Below, in pieces: positions 13,913-24,089 of a DNA stretch of 50,602 nucleotides. Source of the stretch: an uncultured Gammaproteobacteria bacterium (GTDB taxonomy: Bacteria; Pseudomonadota; Gammaproteobacteria; PS1; Pseudothioglobaceae); assembly GCA_902513495.1 (NCBI GenBank), contig CABXNH010000005.1, positions 1 through 50,602 of the forward strand. Direction: 5' to 3'. How positions within the stretch are numbered: the first letter of the stretch is position 1; every line of letters begins with the position of its first letter. Made by a program: the position numbers and the translations under genes. The notes beneath the pieces were generated by a model that had not been told where the DNA came from, did not search any database, and saw nothing but the letters and a program-made list of their open reading frames with translations.

Positions 13913-14698
13913 ATGGGTTTTTTAACAGGTAAAAAGGCACTCATTGTTGGCGTTGCTTCAAACCGCTCAATTGCTTGGGGAATTGCTGAATCAATGGCAG
14001 CAAATGGCTGCGAACTTGCCTTTACCTATCAAACTGAAAAACTAAAGGGTCGCGTTGAAAAGTGCGCTGAAATCTGCAACTCATCTATTGTTATTCCTTG
14101 CGATGTATCCAGTGATGAGCAAATCAATGAGACCTTTGATGAACTTAAAAAATCATGGGACAGCTTTGACATCTTAATTCACTCAGTCGCCTTTGCAGAA
14201 AGAGCTGAGCTCGATGGCAATTACCTTGAAGTCACAACGCGCGAAGGATTCCTTAAGGCTCATGAAATTAGCTCATACAGCTTTACAGCACTTGCAAAAT
14301 CAGCCATGCCGATGCTTAATGAGAACGGCGCTTTATTAACGCTGAGCTACTTGGGCGCTCTAAGAGCAATCCCTAATTACAACGTCATGGGTATTGCTAA
14401 AGCCTCTCTTGAAGCCAATGTAAGATACATGGCCGCTGCAATGGGAGCAGAGAAAGGTATTCGCGTTAACGCAGTGTCAGCTGGCGCAATCAAAACGCTT
14501 GCAGCAAGCGGGATAAAAGGGTTTGGAAAATTACTTGATCATGCTGCTGAAAGCTCTGCACTTAAACGCAATGTGAGTATTGAAGAAGTCGGTAATGTGG
14601 CAGCATTTTTGTGCTCAGACCTGGCCTCTGGAGTGACCGGTGAGGTCACCTATGTTGATGCAGGATACAACTTCTATGAGAAAGGCCCTGACCTTTAA
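13913..14698 (+). CDS. fabI: Enoyl-[acyl-carrier-protein] reductase (NADH)
   Basis: FabI catalyses the last reduction in each cycle of type II fatty-acid synthesis. It has 261 residues. The cofactor site is [13 protein letters not shown] (13-25), and the active-site residues Tyr146, Tyr156 and Lys163 (NYNVMGIAK) fall at the same numbers as in E. coli FabI. The C-terminal [13 protein letters not shown] is typical of the family. A good ribosome site, GGAGG, sits before the ATG. It is convergent with the PpiD gene, the arrangement I recall from Pseudomonas, supporting a conserved neighbourhood with hup. Confidence 0.97.
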
Positions 14699-14707
14699 CC
14701 TTAGATA

Positions 14708-16552
14708 TTAGAGAAGATCAGTAAAAACTTTTATTTCTGCACCTTCTCTTAACTGCTTAATTAAGGAGACGAACATTTCATTGTTCTCCTGACTCAAATA
14801 AAGCGCTGAGATACCAGTATCTGCATCCTCTTCTGGAATTCTAACTCCGCCTAAATCAATCACTAAAGACGTTGATCTGTCAGCACTTTGAGCGCTATAC
14901 GTATGTCTTCCTTCTTCAGGTTTTGATAAAGTAAATGATTTAGATGTCACGTCATACGGCAACTCACTCGCCCTTGAAATCCAACCTTCAGAAATCCACT
15001 CTAGACTGTTCTCTGAGATTAAATTACTAGCTGTTTGCTCATCACCGCTTGAGAGAGCAGAAGCAATACTTTCAGCAATGTCTTCAATCACTTCTTTTGC
15101 AGCAGCTGTCTTAAGAGCAGACTCAATTTGACCTTCAACCTCACTTAAATCTCTCTCACGCTCTGGCTGTATATCAGATAAAGCCAAAACAACAAATTTT
15201 TCAGAATTGATCTCCATAACTTCAGAATTTTCACCCTCATCTATAACTGCAGGACTAAAAGCAGAAGCAACAAATTTTTGATCATATTGACTGCTACCAT
15301 TAGCAAAATAGTCACTCGTTTGAAGCTCAAGCCCAAACTGATCTGCCACCATATCTAAAGACTCTTCATAGGACAGGTTAATGAACTCCTCAAGAGAACC
15401 AAAGAGTATTTTCTCTTTCGCATTTTTAATATAAAGTGCAGCTAATTGTTCCTCAACTTCATCAAAAGCTTGCATCGTTTCAGCTTCAATATCCGTAAGC
15501 TTTATGATATGAAAATAACCATACTCAGTTGAAACAACCTCACTGACATCACCGATACTCATAGCAAATGCAGCTTCATCAAACTCTGCGCCCATTAACT
15601 CTCTTTCAAAAAATCCAAGATCGCCACCCTCTTCACTTGAAGAGCTGTCTTCTGAGTTGGCTTTAGCGAGCTCTGTAAAGTCAGCGCCCTGTTTGATCTT
15701 TTCTAATAAGTCATCAGCTAATTCTTCACTCTCAACTAGGATATGTTGCGCTCTTCTTCTTTCAGGGTTTGTATAAAGCTCAGCGTTTTCATCATAAAGA
15801 TTTTGAAGATCATCATCACTTGGGCTTTCTGGCTCATCCATGGCATCTAATGTAAGCTCAACAAAATCCACCTTAACTTTCTGACCTTCAATGAAGATTG
15901 ACTTGTTCTCATTAAAGTAGTCTGAAATTTGATCCTTAGAAACACTGACTTGATCCACATAATTATTTGTATTAAGTGCAATATATGACACTTCTCTTTG
16001 CTGAGATGCAAGATTATTAAGCTGCTTAATTTGAGTCGATGACATGAAAGCAGAGCCGCTTAGGTTTCGTTTAATTTGATCGCGCGTCAATGCCTTTGAT
16101 TGAGCTAACTCATATCCAGCAGGCGTATAACTATTTAGCCTTAACAGCTGCGCATAACGATCTTGTGAAAATTCACCATCAACCAAGAATGCTTGATTTA
16201 ATTCAATAACCGATTTAACCTCATTATCTAGGGTGACAATATCTAATGAGTTAGCATAATTTTCAATCAACTTCTCATTAATCATTGAATCTAAAAGGCT
16301 CTGCTTAATCGCATTATCAATCTCTTGAGTATAAGCAGCGCCCAATTGTTGTTGCAGGTTACGTTGCTGTGTGTTTAATTCCTGGTAATAAACATTAATA
16401 TCAATATCCTCTCCATCAACCGTTGCAATAGAGTTATTTGCTGAACGACTGACATAATCTTGAATTCCAAACAAAGCAAATGGAACTGTTATTAAACCGA
16501 CTATGAGATACGCGACCCAACCTTTTGATTTATTTCTTATTGCACTTAACAT
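14708..16552 (-). CDS. ppiD: Periplasmic peptidyl-prolyl isomerase-like foldase, PpiD type
   Basis: A membrane-anchored periplasmic chaperone that helps newly exported proteins at the Sec translocon. The ATG at 16552 gives MLSAIRNKSKGWVAYLIVGL, a cytoplasmic start plus one anchor, matching PpiD; the frame extends 14 codons further upstream but adds nothing family-like. An N-terminal SurA/PpiD-type chaperone domain (DGEDIDINVYYQEL) is followed by a parvulin domain around residues 260-360 (AQHILVES, GGDLGFFERELM, FHIIKL). The C-terminal half is poorly conserved. In other gammaproteobacteria ppiD lies just after hupB; here about 7.7 kb separates them. Confidence 0.92.
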   Translation of the reverse strand: MLSAIRNKSKGWVAYLIVGLITVPFALFGIQDYVSRSANNSIATVDGEDIDINVYYQELNTQQRNLQQQLGAAYTQEIDNAIKQSLLDSMINEKLIENYANSLDIVTLDNEVKSVIELNQAFLVDGEFSQDRYAQLLRLNSYTPAGYELAQSKALTRDQIKRNLSGSAFMSSTQIKQLNNLASQQREVSYIALNTNNYVDQVSVSKDQISDYFNENKSIFIEGQKVKVDFVELTLDAMDEPESPSDDDLQNLYDENAELYTNPERRRAQHILVESEELADDLLEKIKQGADFTELAKANSEDSSSSEEGGDLGFFERELMGAEFDEAAFAMSIGDVSEVVSTEYGYFHIIKLTDIEAETMQAFDEVEEQLAALYIKNAKEKILFGSLEEFINLSYEESLDMVADQFGLELQTSDYFANGSSQYDQKFVASAFSPAVIDEGENSEVMEINSEKFVVLALSDIQPERERDLSEVEGQIESALKTAAAKEVIEDIAESIASALSSGDEQTASNLISENSLEWISEGWISRASELPYDVTSKSFTLSKPEEGRHTYSAQSADRSTSLVIDLGGVRIPEEDADTGISALYLSQENNEMFVSLIKQLREGAEIKVFTDLL

Positions 16553-16773
16553 ATTAATATTTATACCAATGGTGTTGATACTTTTGGGCATCAACCAATT
16601 TCAATTAACTCAAATTCAAATTTGAGATACCTATCAAGAGTTAAATATTAACGCTTGATTTATTTTTTTTCTAGCTAAAGGGATCTTATATCAATGCAGA
16701 TCTTACCATTTGCTTTGTGAAGCATTATACAAGGCTATGTACTTCATCTATAAAAGTTTTTGTACCTTAAAAC

Positions 16774-17805
16774 TTACCCATATTTTTGTGACAATTTATC
16801 TAAAAGATTGTTAATATCATTTCGATCAGTATTCCATGCAGTTACAAATCGAACAGCCTTTCCATCTAGCTCCTCTTCATTGATGTCATAACCAGAATTA
16901 TTTAAATAATCAATAACATCCCGTGAAAGGTGAACAAAAACTTCATTAGACTCAGTTGGATAGGCTAAATCAATATTTGAGAAGGCATTTAAGCCCTCAC
17001 TTAATATCTTTGCCATAGCATTTGCATGGCTAGCATTTCGAATCCACAGATCATCTGAGACATAAGCATTTAACTGAGATGAAATGAAACGCATTTTTGA
17101 GAGTAGCTGACCAGATCTCTTATGAAGGAATGGAAAATGTCCAACCATCTCAGGTTTAAAAAATATGATTGCTTCAGCAGCGAGACAGCCATTTTTGGTG
17201 CCACCTAAAGTTAGAACATCAACTCCCGATTTCCATGTCATCTCTGCAGGACTAACATCTAGAGATACGAGTGCATTAGCAAAACGCGCACCATCCATGT
17301 GAACGCTCATTTTATGATTATGGGCAATTATTGATATTTCACGTATCTCATCTAATTGATAAATAGTTCCTGTTTCACAGGATTGAGTGATACTCACAAC
17401 TGAAGGTTGAGTCACATGAACATTTCCAGAACCCCTTATACTATCAGCAAGCTCTTTAGCCTGAATTCTTCCATTACTGCTTCTCATTGGATTGAGTTTA
17501 GCGCCACCAGTAAACAGCTCTGGTGCTCCGCACTCATCTGTATTAATATGAGACAACTCATGGCAATATATTCTTCCATAAACGGGCGCTAATGCCGATA
17601 AGGCTAGTGCATTTGAAGCCGTCCCAGACACTGCTAAAAAAACCTCGACATCAGTTTCAAAAACTTCTGATAATTTTTTTTTCAATCTAGACGACCATTC
17701 ATCGTCACCATATGATTCTGAAATGCCAGAATTAGCCTCAATGACAGCATCCATCACCTCAGGGCATGCACTCGTCACATTATCTGATGCAAATAAAGCA
17801 TTCAT
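16774..17805 (-). CDS. ltaE: Low-specificity L-threonine aldolase
   Basis: A PLP enzyme that splits threonine or allo-threonine to glycine and acetaldehyde. It has 343 residues. The family blocks are: ASDNVTSACPEV at the N-terminus, CHELSHINTDECGAPE, the aspartate of VHMDGARFANAL, and the PLP lysine in LTLGGTKNGCLAAEA. The protein resembles the bacterial class that lacks the C-terminal extension. It is downstream (by 38 bases) of the DoeB-like gene on the same strand, so the two may be an operon. Both lie in the variable region between ppiD and the tRNA-Asp insertion site. Confidence 0.9.
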   Translation of the reverse strand: MNALFASDNVTSACPEVMDAVIEANSGISESYGDDEWSSRLKKKLSEVFETDVEVFLAVSGTASNALALSALAPVYGRIYCHELSHINTDECGAPELFTGGAKLNPMRSSNGRIQAKELADSIRGSGNVHVTQPSVVSITQSCETGTIYQLDEIREISIIAHNHKMSVHMDGARFANALVSLDVSPAEMTWKSGVDVLTLGGTKNGCLAAEAIIFFKPEMVGHFPFLHKRSGQLLSKMRFISSQLNAYVSDDLWIRNASHANAMAKILSEGLNAFSNIDLAYPTESNEVFVHLSRDVIDYLNNSGYDINEEELDGKAVRFVTAWNTDRNDINNLLDKLSQKYG

Positions 17806-17843
17806 TTTCTCTCCTAATATAAAGGCAATAACTCACTATAAAG

Positions 17844-18833
17844 CTACACTGGAATCGCAACAACACCCAGAAAATCACCGTTGACCACTAATCCTGGAAA
17901 GTGTCTTCCAGTATAAATACCATCAATCCCAGCGAAATATTCAACAGGAGCTTCTCCTGTTCTCTCTATGTTGTGAACTTTAGCAACTAGTTGTCCTGCC
18001 TGAACATCATCGCCAAGATCTACGCAGTGCTCTACTAGTCCTGAAGTTTCACTAAAGATGTAACATCGCTCATCAGGCATATCTAAACTTAGGGTATCCG
18101 CTACTTCAAGCTCCCCTTGAGTAATGCCTGCATGACGAAGAATATTACGGATTCCTTTCTTTGCAATTTCAACTGTATAAGCCATTGTCGATCCGCCACC
18201 GCCAAGCTCTGTACTAATAAATACCTTTCCCATATTTTCAGCAGCAGTGTCATACATATTGACAGCATCTATCTCCAGAAGCATCACCGAATGAGGTGCG
18301 TTAAAAGCCTTCATTGCGTCAATGCATTTTGACTGTTGCTCTTTATCATCTAGAATATGAGCACAACAAAATGGCAAAAAATCTAATGTCTTTCCTCCAG
18401 AATGAAAGTCAACTACAAAATCAGCAAGTGGCAAAAGAGTTCGGTTAAAGTAATCGGCAATTTTTTCAGTAAAGGTCCCCTCTGGATTCCCAGGGAAAAC
18501 TCGATTCATATTACCACCATCAATGGGCGATGTTCTTTTTCCAGCTTGAAAGGCTGGATAATTCATTCCAGGGATGATAATAACCCTACCTTTAATGTCT
18601 TCAGAATTTATTTTATTTGCTAAGTCAAATAGTGCCACAGGGCCCTCGTACTCATCGCCGTGGTTTGCGCCTGTAAAAAGAATTGTAGGGCCAGTCCCAT
18701 TTTTAGCTACAGTAACTGGAATAACTATTGAGCCCCAGGCAGATTTATCATGAGAGTGCGGCAGCTTTAGAAAGCCATGCTGAACGCCATCCTTTTCAAA
18801 ATCGACTGTCGAGCTAATTGGTGAGTCTTTCAT
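17844..18833 (-). CDS. Zn-dependent deacylase, DoeB / aspartoacylase-like
   Basis: A carboxypeptidase-like (M14) enzyme of the succinylglutamate desuccinylase/aspartoacylase family. Metal ligands are visible in GANHGDEYEGP (His and Glu) and VDFHSGG (His). GGNMNRVFPG and ISTELGGGG are also family-like, and the C-terminal half ends in the usual beta-barrel. The closest named match I can recall is DoeB, N-alpha-acetyl-L-2,4-diaminobutyrate deacetylase of ectoine breakdown, but the substrate is not proven; no other ectoine genes are in the window. The start is taken at the second Met (18833, MKDSPISSTVDFEKDG); a longer form begins at 18863. Confidence 0.8.
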   Translation of the reverse strand: MKDSPISSTVDFEKDGVQHGFLKLPHSHDKSAWGSIVIPVTVAKNGTGPTILFTGANHGDEYEGPVALFDLANKINSEDIKGRVIIIPGMNYPAFQAGKRTSPIDGGNMNRVFPGNPEGTFTEKIADYFNRTLLPLADFVVDFHSGGKTLDFLPFCCAHILDDKEQQSKCIDAMKAFNAPHSVMLLEIDAVNMYDTAAENMGKVFISTELGGGGSTMAYTVEIAKKGIRNILRHAGITQGELEVADTLSLDMPDERCYIFSETSGLVEHCVDLGDDVQAGQLVAKVHNIERTGEAPVEYFAGIDGIYTGRHFPGLVVNGDFLGVVAIPV

Positions 18834-18979
18834 GCGTTTGTGAGGTTTGAGATAATAAAGCATAATTGTACTGAAACACCTTAATATTTACAATCTTAAG
18901 AAATATGCTGAAGAAGTTCTTCGCCTAATTCAGCAAATGCAAGGATATTATTTAATTATTTCAAATATAATAAATTTAA

Positions 18980-19981
18980 ATGAGTAGGACTAGAATTTTA
19001 TCTATAGATGGAGGCGGCATTAAAGGCATTGTTCCTGCCGTAGTTTTGTTGCATCTCGAAAAACTTCTTCAAGATCTTTCTAATAATCCAAGCTCAAGGA
19101 TTCATGATTATTTTGATCTATTTTCAGGCGCTAGCACTGGCGCCATAATCATCGCTGGCCTCCTATCCCCTGATAACCACAATCGTCCAAAATACAGCTC
19201 TGAAGAAATTCTTGATCTTTATTTAAATAATGGTCAAATTATTTTCAACTCTTCTCTTTTTCAAGAGATCAAATCTGTCTCAGGAATAGTAAACGTAAAA
19301 TACGACCCTGAAGGCTTAGAATCTGTTTTTGAGAAGTACTTTGGAAAATCAGAACTGAAAGATCTCTTAAAACCTTCTCTAATTCCAGTTTATGATTTAT
19401 CAAGAGGCAAAAACTATTTTTTTCGTCAACAAAAAGCACTAACAAGTCCGAGACACAATTACTATGTGAAAGATCTATTAAGAGGAGCCACTTCAGCATT
19501 AACTTTTTTCCCTCCATCTCAAATTTCTACTGTTAACGATCAAGAGCATCGCTGTTTTATAGATGGTGGAGTCTTTGCAAATAATCCAGCACTCTCAGCT
19601 TATGCTGAATTTCGTTATCATAACTCTAAGTTGCATGCAAAAGATACGATGATGCTTTCACTTGGTACAGGAAGAAAAACGACAAATCTAGATTGCAAAG
19701 TGACAGCAAATTGGGGAGCAGCTGAATGGCTCTATCAAGGCTCATACTTGACCTCTAATGCAGTATCCTCTGCTTCTGACTATCAACTGAATGCTGTTTA
19801 TGGTAACCAATCCAATTATCTTAGACTCGATAGCACCTTTGACGACAACCAAAATAGCAGCATGGACAATACCGATAAAGATTATTTGGACTATCTCATT
19901 TCCCTGGGTGAGAGCATAGTGAGAGATAATCGATCAGAAATTAATACCTTTGCGGAAGAGTTAATCTCAAATTCAAACTAG
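18980..19981 (+). CDS. Patatin-like phospholipase
   Basis: A cytoplasmic acyl hydrolase using a Ser-Asp dyad. At 333 residues it has the glycine-rich oxyanion loop DGGGIKG (10-16), nucleophile elbow GASTG (Ser52) and DGG (Asp195). There is no signal peptide or membrane segment. Stand-alone bacterial patatins may remodel membranes, and some act as effectors in anti-phage systems such as CBASS, but no nucleotide cyclase or other partner is adjacent. It is divergent from the DoeB-like gene. Its stop codon (19979-19981) is seven bases before the left island repeat, so it abuts the insertion point. Confidence 0.88.
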   Translation: MSRTRILSIDGGGIKGIVPAVVLLHLEKLLQDLSNNPSSRIHDYFDLFSGASTGAIIIAGLLSPDNHNRPKYSSEEILDLYLNNGQIIFNSSLFQEIKSVSGIVNVKYDPEGLESVFEKYFGKSELKDLLKPSLIPVYDLSRGKNYFFRQQKALTSPRHNYYVKDLLRGATSALTFFPPSQISTVNDQEHRCFIDGGVFANNPALSAYAEFRYHNSKLHAKDTMMLSLGTGRKTTNLDCKVTANWGAAEWLYQGSYLTSNAVSSASDYQLNAVYGNQSNYLRLDSTFDDNQNSSMDNTDKDYLDYLISLGESIVRDNRSEINTFAEELISNSN

Positions 19982-19987
19982 GTAATA

Positions 19988-20002
19988 TGGCGGAGCGGAC
20001 GG
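19988..20002. repeat. Left attachment-site repeat (tRNA-Asp 3' end copy)
   Basis: TGGCGGAGCGGACGG is identical to the plus-strand sequence covering the CCA end, acceptor arm and part of the T arm of tRNA-Asp at 24013-24027. Only these 15 bases match, so it is a displaced tRNA end and not a tRNA pseudogene. It lies seven bases after the patatin stop codon. Confidence 0.75.
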
Positions 20003-20064
20003 ACGCACGACAACAAACGATTAGCCCTTATATAAAAGCATTTAAACAATTCTATAAAACTACT

Positions 20065-20083
20065 ATGTACATACTTTGTACAT
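20065..20083. repeat. Left terminal palindrome with TGTACA motifs
   Basis: ATGTACATACTTTGTACAT contains two inverted copies of ATGTACA. Its last 13 bases (ATACTTTGTACAT) are the exact reverse complement of 23863-23875 at the other end of the island. It looks like a protein-binding site pair, for a recombinase, excision factor or regulator. It lies between the left attachment repeat and the end of the first island gene. Confidence 0.5.
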
Positions 20084-20091
20084 TTATGCAC

Positions 20092-20805
20092 TTATTCATA
20101 ATTTGTGCCTTTTCTTTCACCAGTTCCTCTTTGTAAAAGCTTTCTTTTTATAATTTTGGCATTAGAACCTGGTTGCTGGCTTTCCTCATGAAGAAAACCT
20201 GTTGTTGCATTGCACTTTTGGCATTGAAATTTACTTTTAAATTTCGCTTGTTGGTAGTTGTCTTTTCGTCTTTTGTCTCTTGAGCCATCTTTATTTGAGT
20301 ATTGCCAAAACCATTCTTGTTCTGAACCTTTAATGAATTTAATTTTTGAATTATTACACCAAGCACATTTTTTATTAGAATTTTTTGGACTAGAAATAAT
20401 AAGGATAAAAATTATTAGTAGGAAAAGAGCGAAAATATAACCAAAGTTATCTTGACTATCAGATTTTTTAGTATTCGAAGCTATTTTATTACAGAAATTT
20501 CCTGATTTTTGATAACCACTCTTACAATACCAAGTGTTTCCAGACTTATAAGCATTTGTAGGAATCTTGATATTATTTGAAGGGTTAATTAATACCTTTC
20601 CGTTGCAGCTTAAGTTTCTTTTTGTAGCTTCATATATATATTGATCAGGTACATTTTTTAGATCAAACCAACTACATATATGTGCATCACTTAAATTAGA
20701 TAGGGATCTTTTTGGATCTAGATTAACTTCAGCATTAGCTTGATTTAAATAGGAATTAAGAAATAGGAATTGAAATACTATTAATGAAAATATAGTTCGC
20801 TTCAT
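20092..20805 (-). CDS. Membrane protein: secreted Cys module, one TM, cytoplasmic zinc ribbon
   Basis: No named family. Residues 1-25 form a signal peptide (ending NQANA). An outer module (about 30-110) has LSDAHIC, EATKRNLSCNG and GNTWYCKSGYQKSGNFC, short cysteine motifs that recur in secreted proteins of marine bacteria. One hydrophobic segment spans about 122-139. The inner part has CAWC (147-150) and CQKC (195-198), a split zinc ribbon, with a basic NKDGSRDKRRKDN stretch between and a basic tail. It is the last gene of the operon, four bases after the GIY-YIG gene. A role in sensing outside the membrane and passing a signal inward is a guess from layout. Confidence 0.7.
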   Translation of the reverse strand: MKRTIFSLIVFQFLFLNSYLNQANAEVNLDPKRSLSNLSDAHICSWFDLKNVPDQYIYEATKRNLSCNGKVLINPSNNIKIPTNAYKSGNTWYCKSGYQKSGNFCNKIASNTKKSDSQDNFGYIFALFLLIIFILIISSPKNSNKKCAWCNNSKIKFIKGSEQEWFWQYSNKDGSRDKRRKDNYQQAKFKSKFQCQKCNATTGFLHEESQQPGSNAKIIKRKLLQRGTGERKGTNYE

Positions 20806-20809
20806 TAAT

Positions 20810-21595
20810 TTATAGGCTGTACTTAACCGGGTTAGCGGCGCCTCTTTTCTTATGATGTGAAATTGATTTATTTATGTAATTTACCCTAACTCGATCTATT
20901 GCTCTTCTTCCATGAAATCCCCATCTATTTTTATATCCTGGGACTGAATACCATTTCTCAAGTTTGCCATTATTATTTATTTCAATAACTTCATAAACTT
21001 CAACAATTATTCCTTTATATTCAGCCAATACATATTCAACAGTATCTCTTCTTTTGCCAATAACCCAAGCCTGTTTGACTGATTCATAAATTAAATCTTT
21101 TCCAAAATACTTTGTATTTACTTTTAAAGCCTCGTCTCGAACTAATTTGTATTTCTTATTAATATTAATAATTACAACACTATGAAGTAACTCGTTTAAT
21201 GGCTGCGCATTGTACTTTCTTAAAATATCATCAGTACTCATCATGCCATTTTCAATACTATTGTGCCCAGTAACCTCATTTGTTAGATTAGCACCAGTTC
21301 TATTGGCCAAATCAATTAGAGCAGACTCTACCTCAAAGGCAACCTCATCGCTCATCCCATGACGAATTACAGTATGCTTTACTCTGTTATTTTGAGTCCT
21401 TGCTCTTATGTCTCTAATCTTCTCATATTTATTGCTTTCTTTATCCTCTAGAATCGCTCCTTCTACATGCTGAAAAACCCTATTGCCTCTTCCCTTGCCG
21501 ATATAAAAAGGCCTATCTTCTAGTGGATCAAATAATGCATAAACATAAGCCTTAAGCTTATGAATCGTTTTTTCATCAAAAGCATTACTCCTCAT
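20810..21595 (-). CDS. GIY-YIG nuclease (LEM-3-like) with C-terminal domain
   Basis: The N-terminal half (about 14-105) is a GIY-YIG endonuclease domain of the LEM-3-like type: AYVYALFD (the GIY strand), FYIGKGRGNRVFQH (YIG strand plus Arg and His), and a glutamate in FEVESALIDL that could bind the metal. The C-terminal half (about 137-245) has AWVIGKRR, EYVLAEYKGIIVEVYEV and RWGFHGRRA. This pattern follows GIY-YIG domains in related proteins and resembles a PUA/EVE-like fold that could read a modified base; that is inference. It is the middle gene of a three-gene operon, with gaps of five and four bases. 261 residues, soluble. Confidence 0.8.
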   Translation of the reverse strand: MRSNAFDEKTIHKLKAYVYALFDPLEDRPFYIGKGRGNRVFQHVEGAILEDKESNKYEKIRDIRARTQNNRVKHTVIRHGMSDEVAFEVESALIDLANRTGANLTNEVTGHNSIENGMMSTDDILRKYNAQPLNELLHSVVIININKKYKLVRDEALKVNTKYFGKDLIYESVKQAWVIGKRRDTVEYVLAEYKGIIVEVYEVIEINNNGKLEKWYSVPGYKNRWGFHGRRAIDRVRVNYINKSISHHKKRGAANPVKYSL

Positions 21596-21600
21596 AATAA

Positions 21601-22575
21601 TTATTTGGAAATTTCAGAATTATGACTTTGATTTGCCCCATCAACGAAATTTCCTATATTGCCAATTCCCCATTGATTTGAGACCGCGATAATTTCATCA
21701 GATAATTGTATGGCCTCTCCCTCTTTGAAAAAGTGCCTTCTGTGTCCTTTATCTTTAAACAGCTGATCAGCATCACTTAGTCTGACAAAAACAGCACGAT
21801 TCCGTTGATTGGGTTTGTCAGCATGCCACTCATCAGGGAATGCTTTTTTAAGATCATCAAAAGTAGTGTTTGGATTTTTTGCTACAAAGTCCTGGACCAC
21901 TGCATGAACCAGCCTACCTTTAGCAAATGCCTTACCTTTGAAAGTATATTTAGATGTATCTCGCTTTCCTTTGACTGCATCATTTGACTGCTCAAGTGCT
22001 GTGATTGCTCTAGCAAAAATGCTCTCATCAATAGGTGTATCAGAGATTCCAAGATCTACTCTACATTGAACCGAAAACCTACTTAGTAGTGAGAAAACTT
22101 CTTGCGCTTGTGATTCTGGTATTTTTACAACTTCATTTTCATCTGCTTCATAAATATCATTTATCTTTTCAAAAAATGCAGTGTATAGTTTGATTGCCTC
22201 ATCTCCGCCAACCATTTGCATTTGTATGAGCGTAAATGGTAATGCTAGCATCTCTTTAGAATCAAGCTGATTATCCTCCAACATATTTTTTGCACTTTCT
22301 AAAATATTTTTGTACAAGTGCACCTTTTCATCAAAAACTCTCTCACTTTTCTTGCTCTCTTGTTCAATTTCAGTTTGCTTATTTAAAAGGAACATTGTCA
22401 TCAAAATAGCAAAAATTGAGCCAAAAGTTGCTCCAAGAACTCTGCCTGGTATACCTCCGCCTACAAGGTCAAATAAAGGGCCGTATCCAAAAAATACAAC
22501 AATACCAACTACAGCCAATATTATTAGAATCTTCATTCCCTGCTTCCTGGTGTCGTCAATCTTGCTAACACTCAT
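21601..22575 (-). CDS. Two-TM membrane protein with recurrent C-terminal domain
   Basis: First gene of the island operon, with a clear AAGGAG ribosome site. Two hydrophobic segments (about 14-33 and 45-64) anchor it. Residues 67-200 are charged and helical, partly coiled-coil. The C-terminal domain (about 208-315) reads YTFKGKAFAKGRLVHAVVQDF, TTFDDLKKAFPDEW, RHFFKEGE and IIAVSNQWGIGNIGNFVDGA. I recognise this as a recurrent uncharacterised domain in proteins that often accompany nucleases or restriction genes, but I cannot name it. The topology puts that domain in the cytoplasm, near the nuclease encoded five bases downstream. Confidence 0.7.
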   Translation of the reverse strand: MSVSKIDDTRKQGMKILIILAVVGIVVFFGYGPLFDLVGGGIPGRVLGATFGSIFAILMTMFLLNKQTEIEQESKKSERVFDEKVHLYKNILESAKNMLEDNQLDSKEMLALPFTLIQMQMVGGDEAIKLYTAFFEKINDIYEADENEVVKIPESQAQEVFSLLSRFSVQCRVDLGISDTPIDESIFARAITALEQSNDAVKGKRDTSKYTFKGKAFAKGRLVHAVVQDFVAKNPNTTFDDLKKAFPDEWHADKPNQRNRAVFVRLSDADQLFKDKGHRRHFFKEGEAIQLSDEIIAVSNQWGIGNIGNFVDGANQSHNSEISK

Positions 22576-22679
22576 AACATTCTCCTTAATAATTAATATA
22601 AATCAAATAATACTACTTATCTGATTAAACAGGTAAAAAAAGAGGTATATTTGAGCTACTTTTCAATGAAAGGATAATT

Positions 22680-22895
22680 ATGAGCGAAAATGATAAATTA
22701 GCTGCCCTTCTCGGCTCTGCTTATTTACTTAAAAAAGCAGATGATAAAATTGATTCGTTAGAGAGAAAAATTTCAGATGTAAATAATACTGTCAAAAGTC
22801 TTTTAAAAGACAGTAATAATTTTCAAAAAAGGACTGAACGCTTGCTCGATGAAAACAAACGTTTACTTAAAGATATTAAACAAAAAATTAGATAA
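22680..22895 (+). CDS. Small coiled-coil protein, divergent from island operon
   Basis: A 71-residue protein with an AAAGGA ribosome site six bases before the ATG. The first 20 residues (ENDKLAALLGSAYLLKK) are mildly hydrophobic; the remainder is a charged helix with heptad spacing (DKIDSLERKISDVNNTVKSL and further), typical of a short coiled coil. No family recognised. It is divergent from the operon across 104 bases, which should hold both promoters. A regulator or scaffold role is possible but not supported by any motif. Confidence 0.6.
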   Translation: MSENDKLAALLGSAYLLKKADDKIDSLERKISDVNNTVKSLLKDSNNFQKRTERLLDENKRLLKDIKQKIR

Positions 22896-22914
22896 TTAAA
22901 AACCTGCTTTAATT

Positions 22915-23088
22915 CTAAATTTTTTGAATTCCTTTTTTATGGCACGTTTGACAGAGCGCATTTGGAGATCTGCTTATTTGTTTTTTGCCTGATGATCCAT
23001 TGCAGATTCCATTATTGCACCAAACTGTGCCACAATTAGTGCACTTATACTTTAGTTTTATTCCTGTTTTACAATACTGACAACCCAT
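22915..23088 (-). CDS. 57-residue Cys-rich (zinc-ribbon-like) protein
   Basis: A short gene with a strong ribosome site (AAAGGAG, six bases before ATG). It begins MGCQYCKTGIKLKYKC and has four Cys pairs in all: CQYC, CTNC, a CNNGIC run after VW, and CQTC near the end. This spacing suggests two bound zinc ions. It lies inside the island, on the same strand as the secreted-protein gene upstream and the operon downstream, and convergent with the coiled-coil gene. No named family recognised. The ribosome site and the regular cysteine spacing argue that it is real. Confidence 0.65.
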   Translation of the reverse strand: MGCQYCKTGIKLKYKCTNCGTVWCNNGICNGSSGKKQISRSPNALCQTCHKKGIQKI

Positions 23089-23126
23089 TAGTTTCTCCTT
23101 TATTTAAAAAAAAATTGCTGATTTCC

Positions 23127-23789
23127 TTATTCTAGTCTCTTATAATTTTCAATATCAAAGTCTCTTATCCCCAAAGATATTACCCCGCTCTCATCAATTT
23201 TAATAGTTTCAAGATCGTATTTTGGAGGCCATACTCCAGCTTCATTATGCTCAGTAGTTAATCTATCAATCAAGAAACTTCCATTACTATTTATGTAATA
23301 ACCATCAATTATCCTTTCGCTCCCTTTTTTATTATTTGCTTGCCACATATTCAATGGATCTCTTATCTCTGCAATTTTTTTAAAAGTTGGAAATGTTGAA
23401 TACAATAGATAAGTATGAGAATAATTAGCTGCGTAAAATGAGCTTAAGAACGTAAGAAATGGAAAGCCTTCGGGCGCATCCACAATGCTTAATTCATCTC
23501 CACCTCCAATAAAATCTTCAACAATATGATTATTGCCGTCAATGACTTGTCCAGAGAATGAGTATCCTACATTGTAATCTTCTCTAGCTTTTGAAGGCTT
23601 TCCATCTTCATAAAACTGTCCATCAATGAACTCACCGCCTTTGGTGCAAGCATGTTTGGTAATAATGACTTGGTGATTGTCTATTGGTGTAACAGATATT
23701 TGTACTGTCCATAAATCTCCACCACATCTCACCTCAGTAAAGCCTGAAAAAGATATGCATAACAGGATAAATATATATATTTTTCTCAC
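23127..23789 (-). CDS. Secreted protein of unknown function
   Basis: A 220-residue protein starting MRKIYIFILLCISFSGFTEV, a Sec signal peptide. The mature part has two cysteines (EVRCGGDLW and HACTKGG), beta-rich composition and no motif I recognise. It is the first gene inside the right end of the island, 224 bases from tRNA-Asp, with the TGTACA sites between them. It is 38 bases upstream of the Cys-rich gene. A periplasmic or secreted location is likely; function unknown. Confidence 0.6.
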   Translation of the reverse strand: MRKIYIFILLCISFSGFTEVRCGGDLWTVQISVTPIDNHQVIITKHACTKGGEFIDGQFYEDGKPSKAREDYNVGYSFSGQVIDGNNHIVEDFIGGGDELSIVDAPEGFPFLTFLSSFYAANYSHTYLLYSTFPTFKKIAEIRDPLNMWQANNKKGSERIIDGYYINSNGSFLIDRLTTEHNEAGVWPPKYDLETIKIDESGVISLGIRDFDIENYKRLE

Positions 23790-23839
23790 ACTTAGATTAT
23801 ATGTCAGTATGAGCTATGACTAACATAATATTAATAAAA

Positions 23840-23875
23840 ATGTACATAGCAAGACAGTAAATATGTACAAAGTAT
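23840..23875. repeat. Right terminal TGTACA sites
   Basis: Two TGTACA motifs, in AATGTACATAG (from 23840) and ATATGTACAAAGTAT (23861-23875). The latter is the exact inverse of 20071-20083 over 13 bases. They sit between the right attachment repeat and the first gene of the island, mirroring the left end. Confidence 0.5.
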
Positions 23876-23894
23876 GAAACTTTATACATTTATA

Positions 23895-24010
23895 ATCAAA
23901 CTTTAGGAACTAGAAGAAACTCAAAGAAATTGAATTAAACTGTTCTAGCCCTTTTATATCAAGGGCATTGAACTATATTAAACTGGATTAAACTAGGTTA
24001 GAACTAGTAG
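23895..24010. repeat. Iterated AT-rich motifs beside tRNA-Asp, with a small hairpin
   Basis: ATTAAACT occurs three times (23934, 23977, 23987). A longer imperfect block repeats: ATCAAACTTTAGGAACTAG near 23896 and ATTAAACTAGGTTAGAACTAG at 23987. A hairpin GCCCTT-ttatatc-AAGGGC lies at 23948-23966 and could end or trim the tRNA transcript, although no T run follows it on the minus strand. These may be arm-type recombination sites of the island end. Confidence 0.4.
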
Positions 24011-24012
24011 AT

Positions 24013-24027
24013 TGGCGGAGCGGACGG
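24013..24027. repeat. Right attachment-site repeat inside tRNA-Asp
   Basis: TGGCGGAGCGGACGG, the plus-strand form of the 3' end of tRNA-Asp. It is the second copy of the 15-bp repeat that bounds the island; the intact tRNA is on this side. Confidence 0.75.
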
Positions 24028-24089
24028 GGGTCGAACCCGCGACCTCCTGCGTGACAGGCAGGCGTTCTAACCAACTGAACTACCGCTCC
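24013..24089 (-). tRNA. tRNA-Asp (GUC)
   Basis: A 77-base gene with encoded CCA. The acceptor arm GGAGCGG pairs with CCGCTCC; the anticodon loop CTGTCAC gives anticodon GUC; the T arm GCGGGTTCGACCCCCG is standard. The sequence is close to E. coli tRNA-Asp. Its 3' end is the island attachment site. It lies eight bases after tRNA-Val, so the pair is likely one transcript. Confidence 0.97.

Follow-up and report, generated by a model that had tools for sequence, protein, structure and literature searches.

A CMoRE (PD-T4-3) Nuclease Gene in an Operon with a Candidate Membrane Partner in a tRNA-Asp Island of an Uncultured Gammaproteobacterium

We describe a three-gene operon, and the small tRNA-linked island that carries it, in an uncultured gammaproteobacterium of the family Pseudothioglobaceae (GenBank assembly GCA_902513495.1). 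The DNA analyzed, called the window here, is positions 1 to 50,602 of contig CABXNH010000005.1 (50,602 nucleotides). The operon encodes a protein with two transmembrane (TM) segments (gene A), a GIY-YIG nuclease (gene B), and a single-TM protein with a zinc ribbon (gene C), with intergenic gaps of 5 nt between A and B and 4 nt between B and C. These three open reading frames (ORFs) and their spacing agree with an initial annotation, which was made by a model from the letters and an ORF list. We read the operon as a form of the CMoRE (PD-T4-3) defense system that has a membrane partner, in which A would dock B at the membrane (probability about 0.57). On our best reading, B belongs to a known kind, and the operon with a membrane partner is what is new. 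The genes of the operon are as follows.

21601-22575, minus strand: gene A, two-TM protein of 324 residues (ORF list and plain hydropathy scan)
20810-21595, minus strand: gene B, GIY-YIG nuclease of 261 residues (PADLOC PD-T4-3, CMoRE structure 9u75, nuclease residues)
20092-20805, minus strand: gene C, single-TM protein with zinc ribbon, 237 residues (ORF list, alignment, hydropathy)

By sequence, the product of gene B belongs to the modification-dependent GIY-YIG nucleases of the known PD-T4-3/CMoRE kind. It matches the PADLOC PD-T4-3 profile with an E value of 7.6e-46 (residues 1-260, profile positions 1-253 of 256), PHROG 5356 (1.3e-49), Pfam LEM-3_GIY-YIG (3.7e-12), and the CMoRE crystal structures 9u75 (2.1e-27, residues 6-260) and 9u7u (1.1e-26). 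CMoRE is described as a type IV restriction enzyme that degrades DNA containing 5-hydroxymethylcytosine (5hmC) or its glucosylated form (5ghmC); it has a GIYxY-YIG motif, a lid of acidic residues, and a sensing domain at its C terminus (PMC12923530). B has the full-length match, the GIYxY-YIG motif, the R/E pair, and the sensing domain, which is covered by the alignment to 9u75 as far as residue 260. The nuclease residues Y17, Y19, Y31, R39, and E90 are all present, and of 86 B relatives in the alignment, which excludes the fragments L156 and L177, 85 share all five. The exception is a cut-off copy at locus L149 that ends before the Glu. R39 and E90 are taken as the catalytic pair because they are invariant; the passages of the CMoRE paper on this point give no numbers for them. 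Y127 of the E. coli plasmid homolog, a 5hmC contact in that paper's numbering, falls on Y128 in the alignment. CMoRE is a tetramer, and the interface positions V92 and L96 of the E. coli homolog align with V89 and L93. The active-site loop, VEGAILEDKESN, has four acidic residues with a longest run of two, compared with a run of four in the longer loop of the E. coli homolog. Such an acidic loop over the active site is reported for most, not all, CMoRE proteins (PMC12923530). The plain hydropathy scan found no hydrophobic segments in B.

The initial annotation had proposed a GIY-YIG nuclease with a C-terminal domain, as the LEM-3_GIY-YIG match and the 9u75 alignment bear out, and had seen in it an anti-phage look, which suits the PD-T4-3/CMoRE type, reported as anti-phage in experiments (PMC12923530, PMC12409345). 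Its statement that no known system fits does not hold, because B is PD-T4-3/CMoRE over its full length, and the same match rules out an undescribed nuclease. What differs from the published systems is the setting. All 274 CMoRE systems found are reported as single-component, and CMoRE is reported to work as one gene in E. coli (PMC12923530), whereas B of the window stands in an operon with a two-TM protein and a zinc-ribbon membrane protein. Literature searches showed no CMoRE with a membrane partner among the titles and abstract beginnings listed.

Gene A consists of two modules. Its N-terminal half contains two hydrophobic 19-mers (residues 16-34 and 46-64), in line with the two TM segments first read there, and a conserved stretch, LLNKQTEIEQ, close variants of which occur in other proteins. 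This two-TM half was matched without the C-terminal one in 8 genomes each of the class set (369 genomes) and the phylum set (398 genomes), usually in proteins of about 195-255 residues. Full-length A is rare, at 3 of 193 relatives (all of this genus), 2 of the 369 class genomes, and 1 of the 398 phylum genomes, with the window's own genome included in each count. The C-terminal domain (about residues 206-316) is presumed to be cytoplasmic. A model of whole A is poor (AlphaFold, mean predicted local distance difference test [pLDDT] 53.8), and a search of the PDB with it gave no match at an E value of 0.001; a PDB sequence search with A returned nothing convincing.

The C-terminal domain was first noted as recurrent, and it is found in several restriction-like proteins. 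It forms the N-terminal 110 or so residues of an McrB in genome G716 (E value, 1.2e-15; locus L299, 4282-6945), a protein with an AAA_5 match (4.9e-13) beside an McrC (PF10117, 2.5e-95). It is also present in five NucS/PD-(D/E)XK-like proteins: L283 exceeds the Pfam NucS_C cut-off, L007 and L301 fall under it, L294 has no Pfam match but matches PADLOC PDC-S11 (1.7e-121), and L293 is counted by look alone. In L300 the domain is fused to a KAP NTPase (1.5e-37). Further carriers are the related proteins L286 and L287 (of the two, only L286 was scanned, giving a weak methyl-directed-nuclease match of 8.7e-5), L285 with a TM-like segment seen by eye, and four short proteins, which we take from their look to be ribbon-helix-helix-like; two of the three scanned gave a weak DUF7557 match under the cut-off. 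The PADLOC candidate PDC-S57, like PDC-S11, contains the domain and matched 6 of the 9 proteins given. The misses were the McrC and an ATP-grasp protein, where the domain is not expected, and the A of locus L113 (at 0.01). Window A has no PDC-S57 match at an E value of 1, and its link to that candidate runs via intermediates. No literature on PDC-S57 was found, and no Pfam family matched the domain. The domain may be a DNA reader because of the company it keeps, above all McrB, whose specificity module is described as an added domain (PMC7641849). The likeness to McrBC is limited to this domain; A, B, and C match neither an AAA GTPase nor McrC.

The A-B pair recurs. We examined the loci of the best 80 of at least 494 B relatives; some of these are short or run up against the end of a contig, and their taxon labels are those of the records, whose bins may hold foreign contigs. 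A homologs lie in five of the 80: L108 and L109 (genomes G004 and G021 of the same genus), L149 (labeled Pseudomonadales, A 86% identical to window A), L145 (labeled Alphaproteobacteria, 34%, the contig starting within A), and L113 (labeled Verrucomicrobia, 43%). A is directly upstream of B in five loci (the window, G004, G021, L149, and L145) and within 120 bp upstream in 4 of the best 80. In the sixth locus, L113, it lies 1.8 kb upstream with three ORFs intervening. A also lies close to tRNA genes in L113, in L149 (between two), and in locus L267 of genome G363.

Among 29 genomes of the genus, A and B occur together in three (the window's own, G004, and G021), each time with C and a divergent 71-residue ORF in the same order. 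The order and strand of A, B, and C are identical in G004 and G021, where A is 82% and 76% identical and B is 89% and 82% identical to the window proteins, respectively. The set is flanked by the tRNA-Asp and a patatin gene in the window and lies at the opposite end of the same hotspot, adjoining DoeB, in G004; in G021 it is beside what we take to be SDR- and RmuC-like genes. Since the neighbors differ in the three genomes, two of which have the set at opposite ends of one hotspot, it moves as a unit, in keeping with the operon of the initial annotation. We saw the whole trio in just these 3 of 29 genomes; the A-B pair is the part that recurs more widely.

The analysis shows the family of B by sequence, the recurrent adjacency of A and B, the hydrophobic segments of A, the sharing of its domain, and the insertion into tRNA-Asp. 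In the proposed mechanism, B would cut phage DNA with modified bases of the hydroxymethylcytosine type, and A would be its inner-membrane partner, with a C-terminal domain common to restriction-like proteins. A most likely docks B at the membrane and perhaps also docks incoming DNA. Placement at the membrane would let modified phage DNA be met on entry while host DNA is spared. We infer the topology, the A-B binding, DNA binding by the A domain, action at entry, and defense. A more specific form, which is possible but doubtful, is a two-protein membrane-anchored restriction system in which the McrB-shared reader of A binds incoming DNA and holds CMoRE at the inner membrane, with cutting during injection.

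The closest parallel in layout is SNIPE (PD-lambda-1; TM-DUF4041-GIY-YIG), described as an inner-membrane-anchored GIY-YIG nuclease that cuts phage DNA during injection and that is toxic without its TM anchor, anchoring being what prevents self-damage (PMC13190303). Contact with the tape measure protein is a further mark of SNIPE. In both cases a GIY-YIG nuclease is tied to the membrane together with a further domain, and we infer a similar way of working. The window layout differs in having two polypeptides, with the TM segments in A and the GIY-YIG domain, of the CMoRE branch, in B. DUF4041 had no match in A or B at E values up to 1. Membership of the operon in SNIPE is ruled out by the lack of DUF4041 and the split over two proteins. 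By analogy, the window layout would divide a SNIPE-like function between two genes and use a nuclease of another family.

Gene C and the 71-residue gene are best explained as local accessory parts. Both were seen only in the three A-B genomes of the genus (3/29), and no C homolog was found outside them among 281 sequences searched. C has one hydrophobic 19-mer (residues 121-139) and a zinc ribbon whose cysteines 147, 150, 195, and 198 are invariant in all three sequences, so its membrane segment and zinc ribbon stand as first annotated. The signal peptide of that annotation is a reading by eye, and the hydropathy scan did not flag the N terminus. Window C has an extra N-terminal part of about 120 residues, probably exported, which the G004 and G021 copies lack. 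The only Pfam match is LITAF-like and under the cut-off (E value, 0.094), and a PDB sequence search with C gave nothing convincing. The intergenic DNA between A and the 71-residue ORF is alignable across the genus copies, all three of which have the ORF. Small ORFs were also seen beside A elsewhere. Beta-flower-like ORFs of about 100 residues adjoin A cassettes in L020 (8788-9090), L021 (525-827), L149 (3385-3702), and L113 (3480-3776); three have PF21786/PF21785 matches, all under the cut-off, and L021 is assigned by its likeness by eye to L020. No such ORF was seen in the window island. An 83-residue protein, alike by eye, lies near A homologs in L113 (3780-4031) and L279 (1216-1467, G363) and has no Pfam match over the cut-off.

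The operon lies in an island that is an insertion into tRNA-Asp with target duplication. The other features of the island are as follows.

19988-20002, plus strand: distal 15-bp direct repeat of the tRNA-Asp 3' end, end of the island (exact repeat)
20061-20082, minus strand: left subterminal pair of 11-mers, TGTACAWAGTA, possible recombinase site (motif search)
22680-22895, plus strand: 71-residue coiled-coil-like ORF, divergent from A (opposite A in 3/3 genus copies)
22915-23088, minus strand: 57-residue cysteine-rich, zinc-ribbon-like ORF (read by eye; too short for the ORF list)
23127-23789, minus strand: 220-residue ORF (homolog in the same hotspot of G025)
23841-23874, plus strand: right subterminal pair of 11-mers, TGTACATAGCA and TGTACAAAGTA, in the opposite orientation (motif search)
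24013-24089, minus strand: tRNA-Asp(gtc), the integration site (proximal repeat, 24013-24027)

The insert is 4,025 bp long, with a G+C content of 32.6% against 38.2% for the window. From base composition, 3e-7 chance copies of the 15-bp repeat are expected on both strands of positions 14001-24012. In genome G013 the patatin gene runs into tRNA-Asp after taggcaaaa; the window equivalent without the island reads taggtaata and then the repeat. Only this junction is visible in G013 because the contig ends inside the patatin gene. The exact repeat and the uninterrupted junction confirm the tRNA-linked island that was first proposed. The patatin gene also adjoins tRNA-Asp in G004 and G023, about 170-200 bp apart, with no island between. 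The 11-mer TGTACAWAGYA has four copies in the window, all near the island ends and in oppositely oriented pairs. The exact sequence TGTACANAGTA occurs in 6 of 304 fetched loci, five from the window's own contig plus L172. Of the island ORFs, the five that do not overlap and have 60 residues or more gave no recombinase match, a search that did not extend to overlapping ORFs or the 57-residue ORF. PF00589 matches occur elsewhere in all 29 genus genomes; the window's own genome has four such matches, one with an internal stop. The island resembles tycheposons and other tRNA-linked cargo islands (PMC10872708) in carrying cargo at a tRNA gene. It differs in its size and in having no recombinase found inside, whereas the tycheposons of Methylophilaceae are reported to have a XerD recombinase.

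The site is a hotspot, with a distance between DoeB and ccmG of about 0.7 to 19 kb (12 of 29 genomes have both on one contig). Other cargo of about 8-19 kb is found at the same tRNA-Asp/DoeB site in L096 (G028), L094 (G025), and L095 (G009). L094 and L096 have imperfect internal copies of the 15-bp site with two mismatches and one, respectively, as if inserts had stacked. The G025 homolog of the 220-residue ORF is 61% identical over residues 18-219. The G004 hotspot (L020, 9944-11900) has an ATP-grasp gene, whose product matches the MvdD pre-ATP-grasp domain (Pfam, 1.1e-9), together with a partner gene. The patatin-like phospholipase beside the island (18980-19981) is close to CBASS effectors (PADLOC, 1.9e-59) and scores 156.6 bits against NCBIfam CBASS_lipase, below the cut-off of 200; no cyclase match was found among the few neighboring ORFs scanned. 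Among the 29 genus genomes, 14 have a match to it, in two cases a fragment.

Several results weigh against a membrane-partnered CMoRE. Two of the only five A-bearing loci among the best 80 are G004 and G021 again, and A is absent from 79 viral B loci (found with an alignment query; a single-sequence B viral scan gave none) and from 7 fetched plasmid or phage loci. A viral scan with A as the query found no relative. At L149, A pairs with a broken B that stops after about 84 residues. Genome G363 has two A homologs, and its sole B match (29% identity) is about 95 kb from the nearer one on the same contig, with no A within 7 kb around it; this separation slightly lowers our confidence. On a tree of 85 B proteins (without the short L149, L156, and L177, and with G004 and G021 entered as L108 and L109), the five A-partnered rows fall in three places and need 3 changes, so a single origin of the pairing is unsupported. 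The A-partner label is nonetheless clustered (1 of 500 shuffles as low), and the pairing is thus either old and often lost or formed more than once. The idea that an A-partnered B has a weaker acidic lid, and hence needs A for safety, was rejected, as 6 rows did not differ from 80 in lid length (p = 0.36), acidic count (p = 0.82), net charge (p = 0.55), or run (p = 0.84), with p values from shuffles that ignore kinship. The C-terminal domain of A modeled alone (pLDDT 83.7, predicted template modeling score 0.81) had a best Foldseek E value of 0.49 against solved structures, so the case for DNA binding is one of association. Finally, the initial annotation had suggested checking the neighbors for defense genes, and none of ten chosen other hotspot genes matched PADLOC at an E value of 0.001; a defense-only hotspot is rejected on this count.

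Much of this would suit B as an ordinary stand-alone CMoRE, with A, C, and the 71-residue gene as a separate unit that shares its cassette and transcript. We regard this as unlikely but as a serious contender: one-gene function in E. coli is on record (PMC12923530), 75 of the best 80 B loci have no A, A and B are far apart in G363 and separated by three ORFs in L113, and L149 retains A beside a cut-off B. It sits less well with five direct A-B adjacencies among differing neighbors when full-length A is so rare, or with A-linked B lineages that are not one clade, so that the pairing may have more than one origin. It is improbable that A is instead a regulator or immunity partner that keeps B silent at the membrane until infection sets it free, in a toxin-antitoxin-like or abortive manner. 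A leads the operon, 5 nt ahead of B, and SNIPE minus its TM part is reported as toxic (PMC13190303), but the toxicity reported for CMoRE is that of a lid mutant, which suggests that the wild type by itself has little (PMC12923530), and the lid is no weaker in A-partnered B. A role other than against phage, as a barrier to plasmids or DNA uptake or as a selfish module that maintains the tRNA element, is very improbable. The mobile-looking island in which no recombinase gene was found and the ten hotspot genes with no defense match would fit such a role, but PD-T4-3 is experimentally anti-phage (PMC12923530, PMC12409345) and is reported to leave vertical plasmid transmission unaffected (PMC12409345).

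If the more specific form with a DNA-binding A is true, SNIPE-like entry surveillance would have evolved on two occasions, through fusion in one and through the pairing of genes in an operon in the other. With a membrane partner that recurs, the strictly single-gene view of CMoRE would change, and modification-dependent restriction would be linked to the place where DNA enters. The Pfam-less domain that A shares with McrB, PD-(D/E)XK-like, and KAP NTPase proteins is a possible DNA reader. The island itself is an example, 4 kb long and with no recombinase gene of its own found, of how such genes are carried.

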